From the NCBI RefSeq assembly GCF_001895005.1, contig NZ_BCXH01000006.1:62001-126000 (forward strand): 64,000 bases of DNA. Direction: 5' to 3'. The notes under the pieces are model-generated. The model saw nothing but the letters and a program-made list of their open reading frames with translations, did no database searches and was not told where the DNA came from. Position numbers and translations under genes: made by a program. Below, piece by piece: positions 53,887-59,241 of the stretch (its first letter is position 1; every line of letters begins with the position of its first letter). Origin of the DNA: Rhodococcus yunnanensis NBRC 103083. Lineage in GTDB: Bacteria > Actinomycetota > Actinomycetes > Mycobacteriales > Mycobacteriaceae.

Positions 53887-55257
53887 TCAGGCTTTGTCGG
53901 GCTCGGAGGCTTTGAGCATGTCGTGACGCTCGACGACCTTGACGCGTTCGCGGCCTTCGGGTTCGCCGAGGGAGCGCTCGTGGGCGTCGAGGCGGTACCA
54001 GCCGTCCCAGGTGGTGAAAGGGACCTTCTTGTCTTCGAGGAACTTGGTGACGGCGTCGAGGTCGGGTTCGGTGGCGCCGGTGAAGTTCGGTGCGTCTTCG
54101 AGCAGGCACGCCACTGTCTCGTTGGCGTCGCCCTTGGTGTGGCCGATGAGGCCGACGGGTCCGCGCTTGATCCAGCCGGTGACGTAGGTGGCGGGGACGG
54201 TCGTCGTCGACGAGGGTCCTTCGACCACGCGGCCTGCTTCGTTGGGGATGGTGCCTGCCTGGTCGTCGAACGGCAGCTGGCTGATGTTCTGCGAGAGGTA
54301 GCCGACGGCGCGGTAGATGGCGCTGACATCCCAGTCGTTGTACTTGCCGGTGCCGCGGACGTTGCCGGTGCCGTCGAGCTCGGTGCGCTCGGTGCGCAGG
54401 CCGACGACCTTGCCGTCTTCGCCGAGGATTTCGGTGGGCGATTCGAAGAAGTGCAGGAACAGCTTGTGCGGCCGGTTGCCGACGTCGCGGATGGCCCAGT
54501 CCTGGAGTGTGTTGGCGACCATGTCGACCTGCTTGGAGGACCGGCGGGCGGTTTCGGAGCCTTCGTCGTAGTCGATGTCCTCGGGGGCGACGATGACCTC
54601 GATGGTCGGCGAGTGGTCGAGTTCGCGGAGTTCGAGGGGCGTGAACTTGGCCTGGGCCGGTCCGCGGCGTCCGAAGACGTGGACTTCGACGGCCTTGTTG
54701 GCCTTGAGGCCCTCGTAGACGTTGGCGGGGATCTCGGTGGGGAGCAGTTCGTCGCCGGTCTTGGCGAGAACGCGTGCGACGTCGAGTGCAACGTTGCCGA
54801 CGCCGAGGACGGCGACCTTCTCGGCGTCGAGGGGCCAGGTGCGGGGGACGTCGGGGTGGCCGTCGTACCAGGAGACGAAGTCCGCGGCGCCGTAGCTGCC
54901 CTCGAGGTCGATGCCGGGGATCTTCAGATCGCGGTCGGCGTTGGCGCCGGTGGAGAAGATGACGGCGTCGTAGAAGCGGCGCAGATCGTCGAGGGTGATG
55001 TCGGTGCCGTAGTCGATGTTGCCGAGGAGTCTGACCTGCGGCTTGTCCAGCACCTTGTGCAGGGCGGTGATGATGCCCTTGATGCGGGGGTGGTCGGGTG
55101 CGACGCCGTAGCGAATCAGTCCGAAGGGTGCGGGCATGCGCTCGTACAGGTCGATGCTCACATCTGTATCGGACTTCATGAGCGCGTCGGCGGCATAGAT
55201 ACCGGCGGGGCCTGCGCCGACGATGGCGACGCGGAGTGGACGAGTCTGATCAGTCAT
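53887..55257 (-). CDS. fprA: NADPH-ferredoxin reductase FprA
   Basis: 456 aa flavoprotein that passes electrons from NADPH to ferredoxins. RVAIVGAGPAGIYAADALMK is the FAD Rossmann motif; GLIRYGVAPDHPRIKGI and VLGVGNVALDVARVLA (NADPH site), VFGRRGPAQAKFT and GWIKRGPVGLIGHTKGDANE TV complete the adrenodoxin-reductase-like family. ATG 55257 chosen to match the family N-terminus; the frame opens at 55314. It could feed the ferredoxin-dependent P450s and oxygenases of steroid breakdown. Confidence 0.95.
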   Translation of the reverse strand: MTDQTRPLRVAIVGAGPAGIYAADALMKSDTDVSIDLYERMPAPFGLIRYGVAPDHPRIKGIITALHKVLDKPQVRLLGNIDYGTDITLDDLRRFYDAVIFSTGANADRDLKIPGIDLEGSYGAADFVSWYDGHPDVPRTWPLDAEKVAVLGVGNVALDVARVLAKTGDELLPTEIPANVYEGLKANKAVEVHVFGRRGPAQAKFTPLELRELDHSPTIEVIVAPEDIDYDEGSETARRSSKQVDMVANTLQDWAIRDVGNRPHKLFLHFFESPTEILGEDGKVVGLRTERTELDGTGNVRGTGKYNDWDVSAIYRAVGYLSQNISQLPFDDQAGTIPNEAGRVVEGPSSTTTVPATYVTGWIKRGPVGLIGHTKGDANETVACLLEDAPNFTGATEPDLDAVTKFLEDKKVPFTTWDGWYRLDAHERSLGEPEGRERVKVVERHDMLKASEPDKA

Positions 55258-55421
55258 GTGCAGCGAACTACCTTCGTCGACGGAAGTACGGACAACCCAG
55301 CATAAATTAAGCATTACCTGATCTGGGCTGCTGGTCCGCCCTCCAGGCTACTTGGCACGATCTGCAGTCTCCACAGACTCCGGACTTGAGCTATTTCCCT
55401 GTTTCAGGTAGGAATTGCATC

Positions 55422-55496
55422 ATGCAGACGACATTCCTGGTCCGGCGGCTTGCCGTCGACTTCTGTCGTACCTGCACGACCATGTGTTGTCGGTGA
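55422..55496 (+). CDS. Cys-rich leader peptide of the sulfonate operon
   Basis: 24 codons: MQTTFLVRRLAVD then FCRTCTTMCCR and TGA, with Cys at 15, 18, 22 and 23. AGGA lies about 9 nt before the ATG. Actinobacterial leader peptides with clustered Cys codons, often with an RRAVD-like motif and ending CCR or CR, are reported upstream of cysteine and sulfur-assimilation operons, where slow Cys translation relieves attenuation. It sits 149 nt upstream of the tauC-like gene, in an otherwise gene-free leader. I see no strong terminator hairpin, so control may be by translational coupling or Rho. Confidence 0.7.
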   Translation: MQTTFLVRRLAVDFCRTCTTMCCR

Positions 55497-55645
55497 CCAC
55501 ACCCGACGCCAGGGCCTGATCTTCTTCTCTCCTCTGTGCAGCTCTGCATCTCTCCCTCTCTCTTCGGTCCGCTCTACAGCACCCCCTCTCTTCAGCCCTG
55601 CTGCGCTGTGCGCATGGCTGCTTACTTCGGCACGAAAGTGACCTC

Positions 55646-56515
55646 ATGTCGACATCCGTCGAGATACCTCCGGACGATCCCGTCCGATCCTCGGCAGCGG
55701 CTCCGGTACGGGACAGAACCCGTCGCGGTCGTGGCTACCTGACCACCATCGGTCTCCCGATTCTCTCCCTCGTCGTCTTCGTCGGGCTGTGGCAGCTCGC
55801 CGCATCGAGCGGTATATGGAACGAGACGTTCGTTCCGTACCCGAGCACGGTGTGGTCGGCATTCGTGGACTTCTCGACAACGCACGACGGTGTGCGCGGC
55901 TACCAGGGCTACCTGCTCTGGGAGCACCTCTACATGACGCTGCGACGGGTATTCGCGGGCGTGATCATCGGAATCGCGCTCGGTGTCGCGCTCGGTCTTG
56001 CCATGGGCACCATCTCCTGGGTGCGGGCCGTGCTCGAACCGTGGTTGACGTTCCTGCGTGCATTGCCGCCGCTGGCCTACTTCTTCCTTCTCGTCATCTG
56101 GCTCGGAATCGACGAGGCACCGAAGGTCACGTTGCTCGCGCTTGCGGCGCTGCCACCGGCCGCGGTTGCGACGACGGCAGCAGTCCTTGCGGCTCCGGTC
56201 GGCCTCGTCGAGGCCGCTCGTGCGCTCGGCGCGAAGCGGCGAGATGTCATTCGCGACGTCGTCATCCCATCGGCACTTCCCGAAACATTCACCGGCATAA
56301 GGCTTTCGGTAGGAATCGCGTATTCTTCGGTCGTCGCTGCCGAGCTGTTCAACGGTCTTCCCGGCATCGGCGGCGCAGTCAAGGATGCCAGCAACTACAA
56401 CAACACCCCGGTCGTGCTCGTCGGCATCTTTGCCATCGGCATCTCGGGTTTGATCATCGACGGCCTGTTGCGATCACTGGAACGCCGTGTCGTTCCGTGG
56501 CGTGGAAAGATCTGA
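55646..56515 (+). CDS. sulfonate/taurine-type ABC transporter permease
   Basis: 289 aa, six transmembrane helices, SsuC/TauC family: SSGIWNETFVPYPSTVWSAF near the start, WVRAVLEPWLTFLRALPPLAYF, EAARALGAKRRDVIRDVVIPSALPETF (EAA loop) and AAELFNGLPGIGGAVKDASNYNNTP. First structural gene of the operon, behind the Cys-rich leader peptide. The ATG follows AAAGTGACCTC, a weak RBS. Confidence 0.9.
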   Translation: MSTSVEIPPDDPVRSSAAAPVRDRTRRGRGYLTTIGLPILSLVVFVGLWQLAASSGIWNETFVPYPSTVWSAFVDFSTTHDGVRGYQGYLLWEHLYMTLRRVFAGVIIGIALGVALGLAMGTISWVRAVLEPWLTFLRALPPLAYFFLLVIWLGIDEAPKVTLLALAALPPAAVATTAAVLAAPVGLVEAARALGAKRRDVIRDVVIPSALPETFTGIRLSVGIAYSSVVAAELFNGLPGIGGAVKDASNYNNTPVVLVGIFAIGISGLIIDGLLRSLERRVVPWRGKI

Positions 56516-56522
56516 GGAAGAC

Positions 56523-57551
56523 ATGAAACTCACCAAAGCTGTTGTCGCGCTTGCCGTAGGGGCGCTCGCACTCACCGGCTGCGCCGTCGACAACTCCGAC
56601 AACGACGACAGCAAGCCCACCATCCGTATCGCGTACCAGTCGTTTCCCAGTGGCGACCTCGTCGTCAAGAACAACGGCTGGCTCGAAGAAGCGTTGCCGG
56701 ACTACAACATCAAGTGGACCAAGTTCGACTCTGGCGCAGACATCAACACGGCGTTCATCGCGGGTGAACTCGATTTCGGTGCCATCGGCTCCAGCCCGGT
56801 GGCGCGTGGATTGTCTGCGCCGCTGAACATTCCGTACCAGGTGGCGTTCGTTCTCGACGTCGCCGGTGACAACGAGGCATTGGTCGCGCGCAACGACACC
56901 GGAATCGAGTCGGTCGCCGATCTGCGCGGCAAACGCGTCGGGACGGCATTCGCATCGACAGCCCACTACAGTTTGCTCGCCGCCCTCGAGCAGGCCGGGC
57001 TGAGCGCGTCGGATGTCGATCTCATCGATCTGCAGCCGCAGGCCTCGCTCGCTGCGTGGGAACGCGGAGACGTCGACGCCGTCTACACCTGGCTGCCGAC
57101 GCTGGACGAGCTGCGCAAGACCGGCAAGACACTCGTCGCCAGTCGTGAGCTCGCCACCGCAGGAAAGCCGACGCTGGATCTCGGTGTCGTCTCGACATCG
57201 TTCGCCGACGAGCATTCGGAGGCCGTCGACGCGTGGCGCCAGGTCGAGACCCGCGCACTCAACACCATCGCCGACGACCCCGATGCAGCTGCGAAAGCCG
57301 TTGCGGCAGAGATCGGAATCACGCAGGACGAGGCCGCGAACCAGCTGAGTCAGGGCGTCTTCCTGACGCCGGAGGAACTGACGTCGTCCGAGTGGCTCGG
57401 AACCGAAGGCTCGGTCGGCAACATCGCCGTGAACCTGCAGAGTGCATCGGAGTTCCTGGCTGCGCAGAATCAGATCGACGCTGCGGCGCCGCTGTCGACG
57501 TTCCAGGACGCGATCTACGTGAAGGGGCTTCCCGGTGTCCTCACAGACTGA
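56523..57551 (+). CDS. sulfonate/taurine-type ABC solute-binding lipoprotein
   Basis: 342 aa. Lipobox ALALTGC; mature NMT1/TauA-type domain: TIRIAYQSFPSGDLVVKNNGWLEEALP, FDSGADINTAFIAGELDFGA IGSSPVARGL, DLRGKRVGTAFASTAHYSLLAAL and YTWLPTLDELRKTGKTLV. ATG 56523 follows GAGGAAG. The 3' end overlaps the ATPase gene by 17 nt. Ligand likely taurine or another aliphatic sulfonate, given the TauD neighbour. Confidence 0.9.
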   Translation: MKLTKAVVALAVGALALTGCAVDNSDNDDSKPTIRIAYQSFPSGDLVVKNNGWLEEALPDYNIKWTKFDSGADINTAFIAGELDFGAIGSSPVARGLSAPLNIPYQVAFVLDVAGDNEALVARNDTGIESVADLRGKRVGTAFASTAHYSLLAALEQAGLSASDVDLIDLQPQASLAAWERGDVDAVYTWLPTLDELRKTGKTLVASRELATAGKPTLDLGVVSTSFADEHSEAVDAWRQVETRALNTIADDPDAAAKAVAAEIGITQDEAANQLSQGVFLTPEELTSSEWLGTEGSVGNIAVNLQSASEFLAAQNQIDAAAPLSTFQDAIYVKGLPGVLTD

Positions 57552-58362
57552 CACGTCCCGCATCGGCGCTCCGAACGCCGGTGACCGGACTCTGGACGGG
57601 TCGATCCGCATCGACAACGTCTCGCACATCTACGGCAAGGGAACCGATCGAGTCACCGCGCTCGGTCCCGTCGACCTGACCGTCCCGCCGGGGGAGTTCC
57701 TCGTGCTCGTCGGTGCTTCGGGTTGCGGCAAGAGCACGCTCCTACGGCTGATCGCCGGCTTCGAGAGTGCCACGGAAGGGTCGGTTCAGGTCTCGGGTAC
57801 AACGCCGACGCCAGGGCTGACGTCCGGTGTGGTCTTCCAGCAGCCGCGTCTGTTCCCGTGGAAGACCGTCGGCGGAAACGTCGATCTCGCATTGAAGTAC
57901 GCGGGAATCAGCAAGGGGGCGAGAGTCGCTCGCCGTGACCAACTGCTGGCCCGTGTAGGACTGGAAGGGACGGCGGATCGCAAGATCTGGGAGATCTCCG
58001 GCGGCCAGCAGCAACGTGTGGCGATCGCGCGGGCATTGGCGGCGGATACGTCGTTGCTCCTGCTCGACGAGCCGTTCGCCGCGCTGGACGCACTTACTCG
58101 TGAGAGGCTTCAGGAAGACTTGCGTCAGGTCAGTGCCGAGTCCGGCCGCACGAGCGTGTTCGTGACGCACAGTGCCGACGAAGCGGCCTTTCTCGGTTCG
58201 AGGATCGTCGTCCTGACCACCCGCCCTGGGCAGGTCGCTCTCGACATTCCGGTCGATCTCCCACGAAGCGGTGTCGACGCAGACGAGCTCAGAGGCTCAC
58301 CGGAATTCGCCGCGCTGCGTGCCGAAGTCGGACACGCGGTCAAAACCGCAGCAGCTGCATAG
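57535..58362 (+). CDS. sulfonate/taurine-type ABC transporter ATPase
   Basis: 275 aa. Walker A GASGCGKST at 60-68, Q-loop VVFQQPRLFPWKTVGGNV, signature ISGGQQQRVAIARAL, Walker B LLLLDEPFAALD, H-loop FVTHSADEA. The order permease, binding protein, ATPase, dioxygenase and the close spacing support one transcript. GTG 57535 lies inside the end of the binding-protein gene. Confidence 0.93.
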   Translation: MSSQTDTSRIGAPNAGDRTLDGSIRIDNVSHIYGKGTDRVTALGPVDLTVPPGEFLVLVGASGCGKSTLLRLIAGFESATEGSVQVSGTTPTPGLTSGVVFQQPRLFPWKTVGGNVDLALKYAGISKGARVARRDQLLARVGLEGTADRKIWEISGGQQQRVAIARALAADTSLLLLDEPFAALDALTRERLQEDLRQVSAESGRTSVFVTHSADEAAFLGSRIVVLTTRPGQVALDIPVDLPRSGVDADELRGSPEFAALRAEVGHAVKTAAAA

Positions 58363-58374
58363 AAGGAGGAGAAC

Positions 58375-59241
58375 ATGACCACTGTCGAAACCGCAGTGTC
58401 CTTGACGCTCGACAAGTTCGGGCCGAGGTTCGGCGCCGAGGTGATCGGACTCGACGTCGCGTCGGCGTCCGATGCCGAGGTGCTCGCGATTCGTGAGGCG
58501 CTCGTCGAGCACAAGGTTCTCGTGCTCCGCGGGCAGTCGCTCGACGACGAGGGGCAGATCGACTTCGGTCGGCGCCTCGGCGAGCTGACCGCAGGGCATC
58601 CCGTGCACGACAGTGGTCATGTGGCTGCCGAGGTGTACGCCCTCGACAGTCAGGACAACGGCTTCGCCGACATCTGGCACACCGACGTGACGTTCATGGA
58701 GCGTCCGCCGATGGGTTCGATCCTGCGACCCGTCGTCCTGCCTCCGCACGGCGGCGACACCAACTGGGCCGACAGTCAGCTCGCGTACGAGTCGCTGTCG
58801 GCTCCGGTTCGGCAGATGATCGACCAGCTCACCGCCGTACACGACGGCAACCGCGAGTTCGGGTACTACCTCGCGAGCAAGCGCGGCGGCAAGGGCAACG
58901 TGTGGGACGGCAAGGAGGTGACCGCGCTGGTACCCGTCGAACATCCGGTGGTTCGGGTCCATCCCGAGACCGGACGCAAGGGGATCTTCGTCAACCCCGG
59001 TTTCACCTCGCACATCGCCGGGGTGTCGGAGGCGGAGAGCCGCGGCATCCTCGACTTCCTCTACGCGCACCTGACGAAGCCGGAGCATGTCGTGCGGCAC
59101 CGGTGGCGCCTGGGCGACCTGGTGCTGTGGGACAACCGGAGCACCTCGCACTACGCGAACCGTGATTACGGCACCGAGCATCGCGTCATGCACAGGATCA
59201 CGCTGCGTGGGGATATTCCGGTCGGACCCCGGCAGCCGTAA
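58375..59241 (+). CDS. tauD: TauD-type 2-oxoglutarate/Fe(II) dioxygenase
   Basis: 288 aa. Oxidises taurine or an alkyl sulfonate (or sulfate ester) to release sulfite for sulfur assimilation. The facial triad is visible: H102 and D104 in IWHTDVTF, H259 in STSHYANRDYG, and the 2-oxoglutarate Arg in MHRITLRGD (R274). A strong GAAGGAGGAG RBS precedes ATG 58375, 13 nt after the ATPase stop. Its placement in a sulfonate importer operon supports the role; the exact sulfonate is unknown. Confidence 0.93.
   Translation: MTTVETAVSLTLDKFGPRFGAEVIGLDVASASDAEVLAIREALVEHKVLVLRGQSLDDEGQIDFGRRLGELTAGHPVHDSGHVAAEVYALDSQDNGFADIWHTDVTFMERPPMGSILRPVVLPPHGGDTNWADSQLAYESLSAPVRQMIDQLTAVHDGNREFGYYLASKRGGKGNVWDGKEVTALVPVEHPVVRVHPETGRKGIFVNPGFTSHIAGVSEAESRGILDFLYAHLTKPEHVVRHRWRLGDLVLWDNRSTSHYANRDYGTEHRVMHRITLRGDIPVGPRQP

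Follow-up and report, generated by a model that had tools for sequence, protein, structure and literature searches.

Upstream of the tauCABD-like genes in the window (the whole 64,000-nt stretch of DNA analysed here) lies a very short open reading frame (ORF) that ends in a cluster of cysteine codons. Does this ORF sense cysteine on behalf of the operon behind it and, if so, by which route does the signal reach the genes? The preliminary description of the locus proposed a 24-codon ORF ending in FCRTCTTMCCR, with four Cys codons among its last ten, directly upstream of tauC-A-B-D. It was found exactly so:

55422–55496, + strand: Cys-rich leader peptide ORF, MQTTFLVRRLAVDFCRTCTTMCCR; 24 codons plus TGA (75 nt), with probably leaderless translation
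55464–55466, + strand: Cys15 codon TGT; invariant, Cys in 25 of 25 diverse leaders
55473–55475, + strand: Cys18 codon TGC; Cys in 14 of 25 diverse leaders
55485–55490, + strand: tandem Cys22-Cys23 codons TGTTGT (TGT at 55485 and at 55488); Cys in 25 and 23, respectively, of 25 diverse leaders
55646–56515, + strand: tauC, sulfonate/taurine ABC permease (Pfam/NCBIfam)
56520–57551, + strand: tauA, substrate-binding protein (Pfam/NCBIfam)
57535–58362, + strand: tauB, ABC ATPase (Pfam/NCBIfam)
58375–59241, + strand: tauD, 2-oxoglutarate-dependent taurine dioxygenase family (Pfam/NCBIfam)

The TauC, TauA, TauB and TauD assignments are those of the best-matching Pfam/NCBIfam models, with scores below the curated equivalog cut-offs. 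The leader ORF is separated from the tauC ATG (55646) by a spacer of 149 nt. Downstream of tauD lie genes for an Rv0361-type membrane protein, a rhodanese-domain protein and an O-succinylhomoserine sulfhydrylase, and the region is therefore a sulfur cluster. The divergent gene at 53887–55257 is homologous to the gene found behind the leader in other rhodococci, and on this ground its product is taken to be an FprA-like flavoprotein.

A short, Cys-rich ORF in a 5' UTR may be there by chance. At least four Cys codons among the last ten are found in 2 of the 620 short ORFs of the 64-kb window, and in 2 of 5545 short ORFs from Markov-shuffled sequence. The rarity of such an ORF is by itself a weak argument; conservation is decisive. 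When 301 genomes of the family were searched with the peptide, 107 contained a relative at an E-value of 1 or lower; where inspected, the better matches were all leaders, and many of the weak ones are chance matches. TauD is present in 28 of 37 Rhodococcoides genomes, and all 28 carry the leader: 25 have it directly before tauD, and the other three (the window's own genome, G006 and G007) have it ahead of the operon's tauC gene. The short ORF, the conservation of which had been named as a check, is thus retained in every TauD-bearing Rhodococcoides genome. Among the nine genomes of this genus that lack TauD, one (G020) retains an orphan leader. This leader (L014) and L128 are both tau leaders without a TauD gene. 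In G012 (L005), where the 24-codon leader is missing, a 7-codon ORF (MRTRCRR*) lies just upstream of tauC, immediately preceded by a −10-like GATACT.

In an independent scan, VRRx[AT]VD[LF]CR was written as a degenerate DNA pattern and run against 84,980 genomes, each from a different species; it matched at 48 sites. At all but about four of these, the next gene—within a few hundred bases—is tauD, tauC or fprA. The exceptions are (i) a gammaproteobacterial reading-frame match (L105), (ii) the orphan leader L128, (iii) a leader in Pseudonocardia that none of the reference genes follows (L127), and (iv) L135, for which the sequence covered ends almost directly after the leader. The L135 record is titled Kitasatospora arboriphila and bears a Williamsia-type leader; it is probably mislabelled or contaminated. 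The genera represented are Rhodococcoides (R. kyotonense, R. fascians and others), Rhodococcus, Williamsia, Antrihabitans and Pseudonocardia, and across genera nearly all tau and fprA leaders are exactly 24 codons long. Conservation in five genera, with a coding-type substitution pattern, already contradicts a chance origin; despite the rate at which such ORFs arise in shuffled sequence, we give this explanation practically no weight.

Alignment of 25 diverse leaders is gapless over the 24 codons and stop. Identity to the majority at codon positions 1, 2 and 3 is 0.80, 0.91 and 0.67; since the third position varies most, the leader is selected as a peptide. L6, R8, R9, V12, D13, C15, R16 and C22 are invariant, and a few tauD leaders (L025, L069, L071) have lost one Cys of the tandem pair to Arg, which leaves Cys-Arg or Arg-Cys. 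Conservation that extends past the Cys codons, into the RR..VD[LF]CR segment, would also suit a functional small protein—a thiol- or metal-binding peptide, for example—in place of a regulator. Such a protein would not account for the fixed position right before sulfur genes, for Cys codons at the extreme end of the ORF, or for identically arranged paralogues in front of various sulfur operons; there is, moreover, a known regulatory precedent. We therefore consider a small-protein function very improbable.

The codons of the conserved segment also lie within a predicted RNA structure:

55422–55477, + strand: predicted RNA hairpin that includes the start codon; the RR and VD codons make up the inner stem

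In the window leader this hairpin is more stable than in synonymous recodings of the ORF (z −2.2). Many Rhodococcoides tau leaders show z values of about −2 to −4, the effect is weak in both R. kyotonense leaders, and the hairpin of fprA leaders is no more stable than that of their synonymous recodings. A conserved RNA hairpin was rejected as the cause of the RR..VD motif, given the fprA result and little covariation, and the structure is not put forward as a conserved RNA family. Codon choice is biased at two places. Firstly, Arg8 is CGA or CGG in 25 of 25 leaders, against 30% of Arg codons in the window gene set. Secondly, TGT makes up 43 of 48 Cys22-23 codons, against 22% of the 23 Cys codons of window genes. 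The leader sequences are related, and neither count is a set of independent observations. RNA pairing or slow decoding are possible causes of the bias at Arg8-Arg9 (55443–55448) and Cys22-23 (55485–55490).

Leaders of this general kind have been described before. Runs of Cys codons were predicted in 2005 in leaders of cys operons of Actinobacteria, including Mycobacterium (PMC1262725), and in 2015 a Cys-rich, Cys-ended uORF was reported before cysA2, with ribosomes seen to occupy the uORF at the M. smegmatis orthologue (PMC4633059). Cysteine-responsive attenuation by such leaderless ORFs in M. smegmatis is credited to Canestrari et al. 2020 (PMID 32181921) by later papers (PMC9031893, PMC9094748 and PMC13236596). 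The window ORF shares with actinobacterial polycysteine leaders the clustered and tandem Cys codons that end a short ORF, and a conserved place upstream of sulfur/cysteine genes. Like the mycobacterial Ms5788A/Ms4527A type, it precedes sulfur genes, carries its Cys codons at the stop, is probably leaderless and has an RR.x[VI]D[LF]CR core; unlike that type, its group is found on tauCABD, tauD and fprA, is exactly 24 codons long and scores below the curated model cut-offs. With the leaders predicted in 2005 it has in common the Cys run near the stop, the lack of a terminator and the pyrimidine-rich spacer, but it differs in operon and genus, and in that sequestration of the Shine-Dalgarno (SD) sequence is predicted in its sister loci.

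The RRLAVD segment, in which a resemblance to known leaders had been suspected, lies within a motif common to the catalogued Cys leaders NF042934 and NF042933. The window peptide can be aligned to NF042934 (cis_reg_atten, putative leader peptide) over residues 5–22, and scores 17.8 bits, below the curated cut-off of 27. NF042933 (the Ms5788A family, cut-off 45 bits) gave no hit with the window peptide up to an E-value of 10, and relatives reach up to 30.3 bits. Pfam gave no match to the leader peptide, and Rfam no meaningful one. The literature searched, in which Canestrari 2020 figures at second hand, yielded no description of a Cys leader ahead of tau genes; this agrees with the preliminary description, to which a leader on a TauD-type operon had looked uncatalogued. 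The leader is unannotated and forms its own orthologous group on sulfonate genes; its kind is already known. Because it is short, unannotated and under the model cut-offs, similar switches have probably been missed.

How the leader is translated depends on where its transcript starts. The elements predicted upstream are:

55386–55391, + strand: predicted −35 element TTGAGC; TTG at a 17–18-nt spacer from a conserved TA in 23 of 28 upstream regions
55409–55414, + strand: predicted −10 element TAGGAA; 7 nt before the leader start, overlapping AGGA

The promoter layout in the window is TTGAGC-N17-TAGGAA-N7-ATG. Among 28 non-redundant homologous upstream regions, a TA is located 12–14 nt before the leader start codon in all 28, including those without AGGA, and a TTG begins 23–24 nt before this TA in 23. 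Leaders of Williamsia, Antrihabitans and some Rhodococcus retain the TA and have no AGGA; the start codon across relatives is ATG or GTG. The sixth base of TAGGAA is A, versus T in the consensus, and some relatives have TACTGT or TAGGGT; a generic sigma-70 promoter scan did not report the predicted −10 TAGGAA. Because the TTG-N17/18-TA geometry persists where AGGA is lost, the transcript is probably leaderless, and the AGGA that was initially read as a ribosome-binding site is probably part of the −10 box. That reading of the AGGA is not upheld: it sits inside TAGGAA, and relatives hold the promoter pattern while losing it. A −10 box just before the start codon, as in polycysteine leaders, is indicated here by comparative promoter geometry only.

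The observations made directly on the leader are the ORF, the conservation of its peptide, its Cys codons, its fixed length, its link to tau and fprA genes, and the promoter geometry. In our judgement the 75-nt ORF is likely to serve the tauCABD operon as its attenuator sensor: a leader peptide that senses cysteine and is translated from a leaderless transcript. The cysteine-sensor role is well supported. From these observations we infer translation, stalling and the direction of control: very probably, the leader turns the operon on under cysteine shortage. The transcript would start at or next to the leader ATG, where ribosomes would load directly. With Cys-tRNA scarce, ribosomes would pause at Cys15, at Cys18 and at the tandem pair Cys22-Cys23, and thereby keep the 3' end of the leader from folding back or from being read as free RNA. 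Expression of tau would then rise, leading to import of taurine-type sulfonates and release of sulfite for cysteine synthesis. When cysteine suffices, the ribosome would complete the leader and the operon would stay low. In severe starvation the first stall would fall at Cys15, and the tandem Cys tract may stay uncovered; the response may, on this argument, be graded instead of on/off. Weighing against the sensor reading are this possible gap in coverage, the lost Cys in the tandem pair of a few tauD leaders, a peptide score under every curated leader cut-off, and the modelled stall, described below, that makes no difference at the tauC start of the window. In R. qingshengii IGTS8, Tau proteins rise when dibenzothiophene is supplied instead of sulfate (PMC8557817), which fits sulfur control of these genes and is no test of the leader.

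The second part of the question is how a stalled ribosome would change operon output. A trp-type attenuator with an intrinsic terminator was rejected: there is no GC hairpin with a U-run between the leader and tauC, and the spacer contains no terminator-like site. The only such site lies within the leader ORF (55465–55480). The R. kyotonense leader-tauC spacers (L004, L003) contain a hairpin of the GGCCTGA..CAGGCC type, without a U-run, the 3' arm of which is absent from the window spacer. The spacer itself stands out by its composition:

55497–55645, + strand: pyrimidine-rich 149-nt spacer, a candidate Rho-loading stretch by composition; densest at 55521–55598

Two routes from sensor to output were weighed. 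The first is translation attenuation, in which the SD and AUG of the first gene are tied up in base pairs with the leader's Cys tract and stop region unless a stalled ribosome covers that part of the leader. M. smegmatis Cys leaders have been described in these terms (PMC13236596). In most R. fascians-type tauD loci, CAUGUGUUGUC (the Met-Cys-Cys codons) is predicted to pair with GAGGACACAUG (the tauD SD and start), and in a Rhodococcus tauC clade (L040, L043, L044, L080 and L082) UGCUGUUGCUGUUGAUUCCU is predicted to pair with AGGAAGAAACAGCGAUG; between L040 and L044 there is one compensated change in this pairing. The stalled ribosome was modelled by masking the leader end, with the cost of opening the start region as readout. 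Masking cuts this cost by about 1.3–3.9 kcal/mol in most R. fascians-type tauD loci (no change in L016 and L017 of this clade) and by 0.7–6.3 kcal/mol in the Rhodococcus tauC clade. In most of the tauD and tauC sister loci that show the effect, it is larger with the native tail than with shuffled tails. Translation attenuation is, in these models, likely in the sister loci.

The window locus behaves differently. Modelled stalling leaves the accessibility of the tauC start unchanged (5.2 vs 5.5 kcal/mol), and the masking effect is absent here and in two R. kyotonense tauC relatives (−0.2, 0.2, −0.3), as well as in nearly all of the tested fprA loci. SD sequestration at the window locus, for which the evidence consists of folding predictions, is thus unsupported by the model, and pairing is likewise not predicted in most Williamsia loci. 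For the window operon, we rate the translational route at somewhat less than an even chance.

The second route is Rho-dependent transcription attenuation, in which the C-rich spacer would load Rho after the leader ribosome has passed, and stalling would prevent this. The spacer is 68.5% pyrimidine; when stretches of this length were taken from both strands of the window, 0.06% were as rich. Its best 78 nt (55521–55598) contain 37 C and 9 G. This C-rich, G-poor composition is as expected for Rho-dependent attenuation, with Rho dependence itself putative. The window spacer is also the most pyrimidine-rich of the homologous spacers compared, and neither an intrinsic terminator nor SD sequestration is predicted to do the work in its place. 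Set against this, the densest stretch starts about 25 nt past the leader stop, farther than a ribosome stalled at Cys22/23 would cover; the switch is therefore not explained by a plain Rho model. Furthermore, the spacers of the two closest tauC homologues are less extreme (pyrimidine fraction 0.61–0.62), and the Rho proposal for mycobacterial cys leaders was termed weak by its own authors (PMC1262725). We consider the Rho route a tentative possibility, with about one chance in three; translational control via another fold and Rho termination in the spacer are about equally likely as the output of the window operon. The preliminary description, which favoured Rho over an intrinsic hairpin, was right about the pyrimidine-rich, C/U-biased spacer and the missing terminator; Rho itself is one option, alongside the SD/AUG pairing predicted in sister loci.

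A single cysteine-sensing leader might also be coupled to different outputs—SD/AUG pairing before tauD and some tauC genes, and perhaps Rho before tauCABD—which we regard as rather unlikely. If true, the sensor would be a portable cassette, the readout of which is rewired when the first gene changes. Since SD pairing is predicted in some sister loci and not in others, swaps between them make the output mechanism directly testable.

Leaders with the same core are found beyond this operon. Elsewhere they precede fprA (R. ruber/zopfii group), tauCAB and tauD, and also genes for beta-carbonic anhydrase-cysQ, O-acetylhomoserine sulfhydrylase and rhodanese-type sulfurtransferase. The window's own genome contains about 7–8 further leader candidates with a VD[LF]xR motif (NCBIfam general leader model). 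These candidates (L173–L180, at C2:155047, C21:54820, C29:7197, C5:181247, C18:76626, C6:133579, C6:144611 and C3:363517) are short ORFs that have Cys close to the stop and a core resembling VD[LF]xR. They are followed by sulfite-reductase-like, DUF4395-like, carbonic anhydrase-cysQ, LysR, symporter and ABC transporter genes. The gene names given here for both sets of leaders derive from sequence reading and homology, and were checked against family models in part. Together the candidates form an apparent cysteine-leader regulon, with about eight members in this single Rhodococcoides genome. Cysteine-leader control apparently extends to sulfonate scavenging (taurine import and cleavage) and to the ferredoxin reductase FprA.
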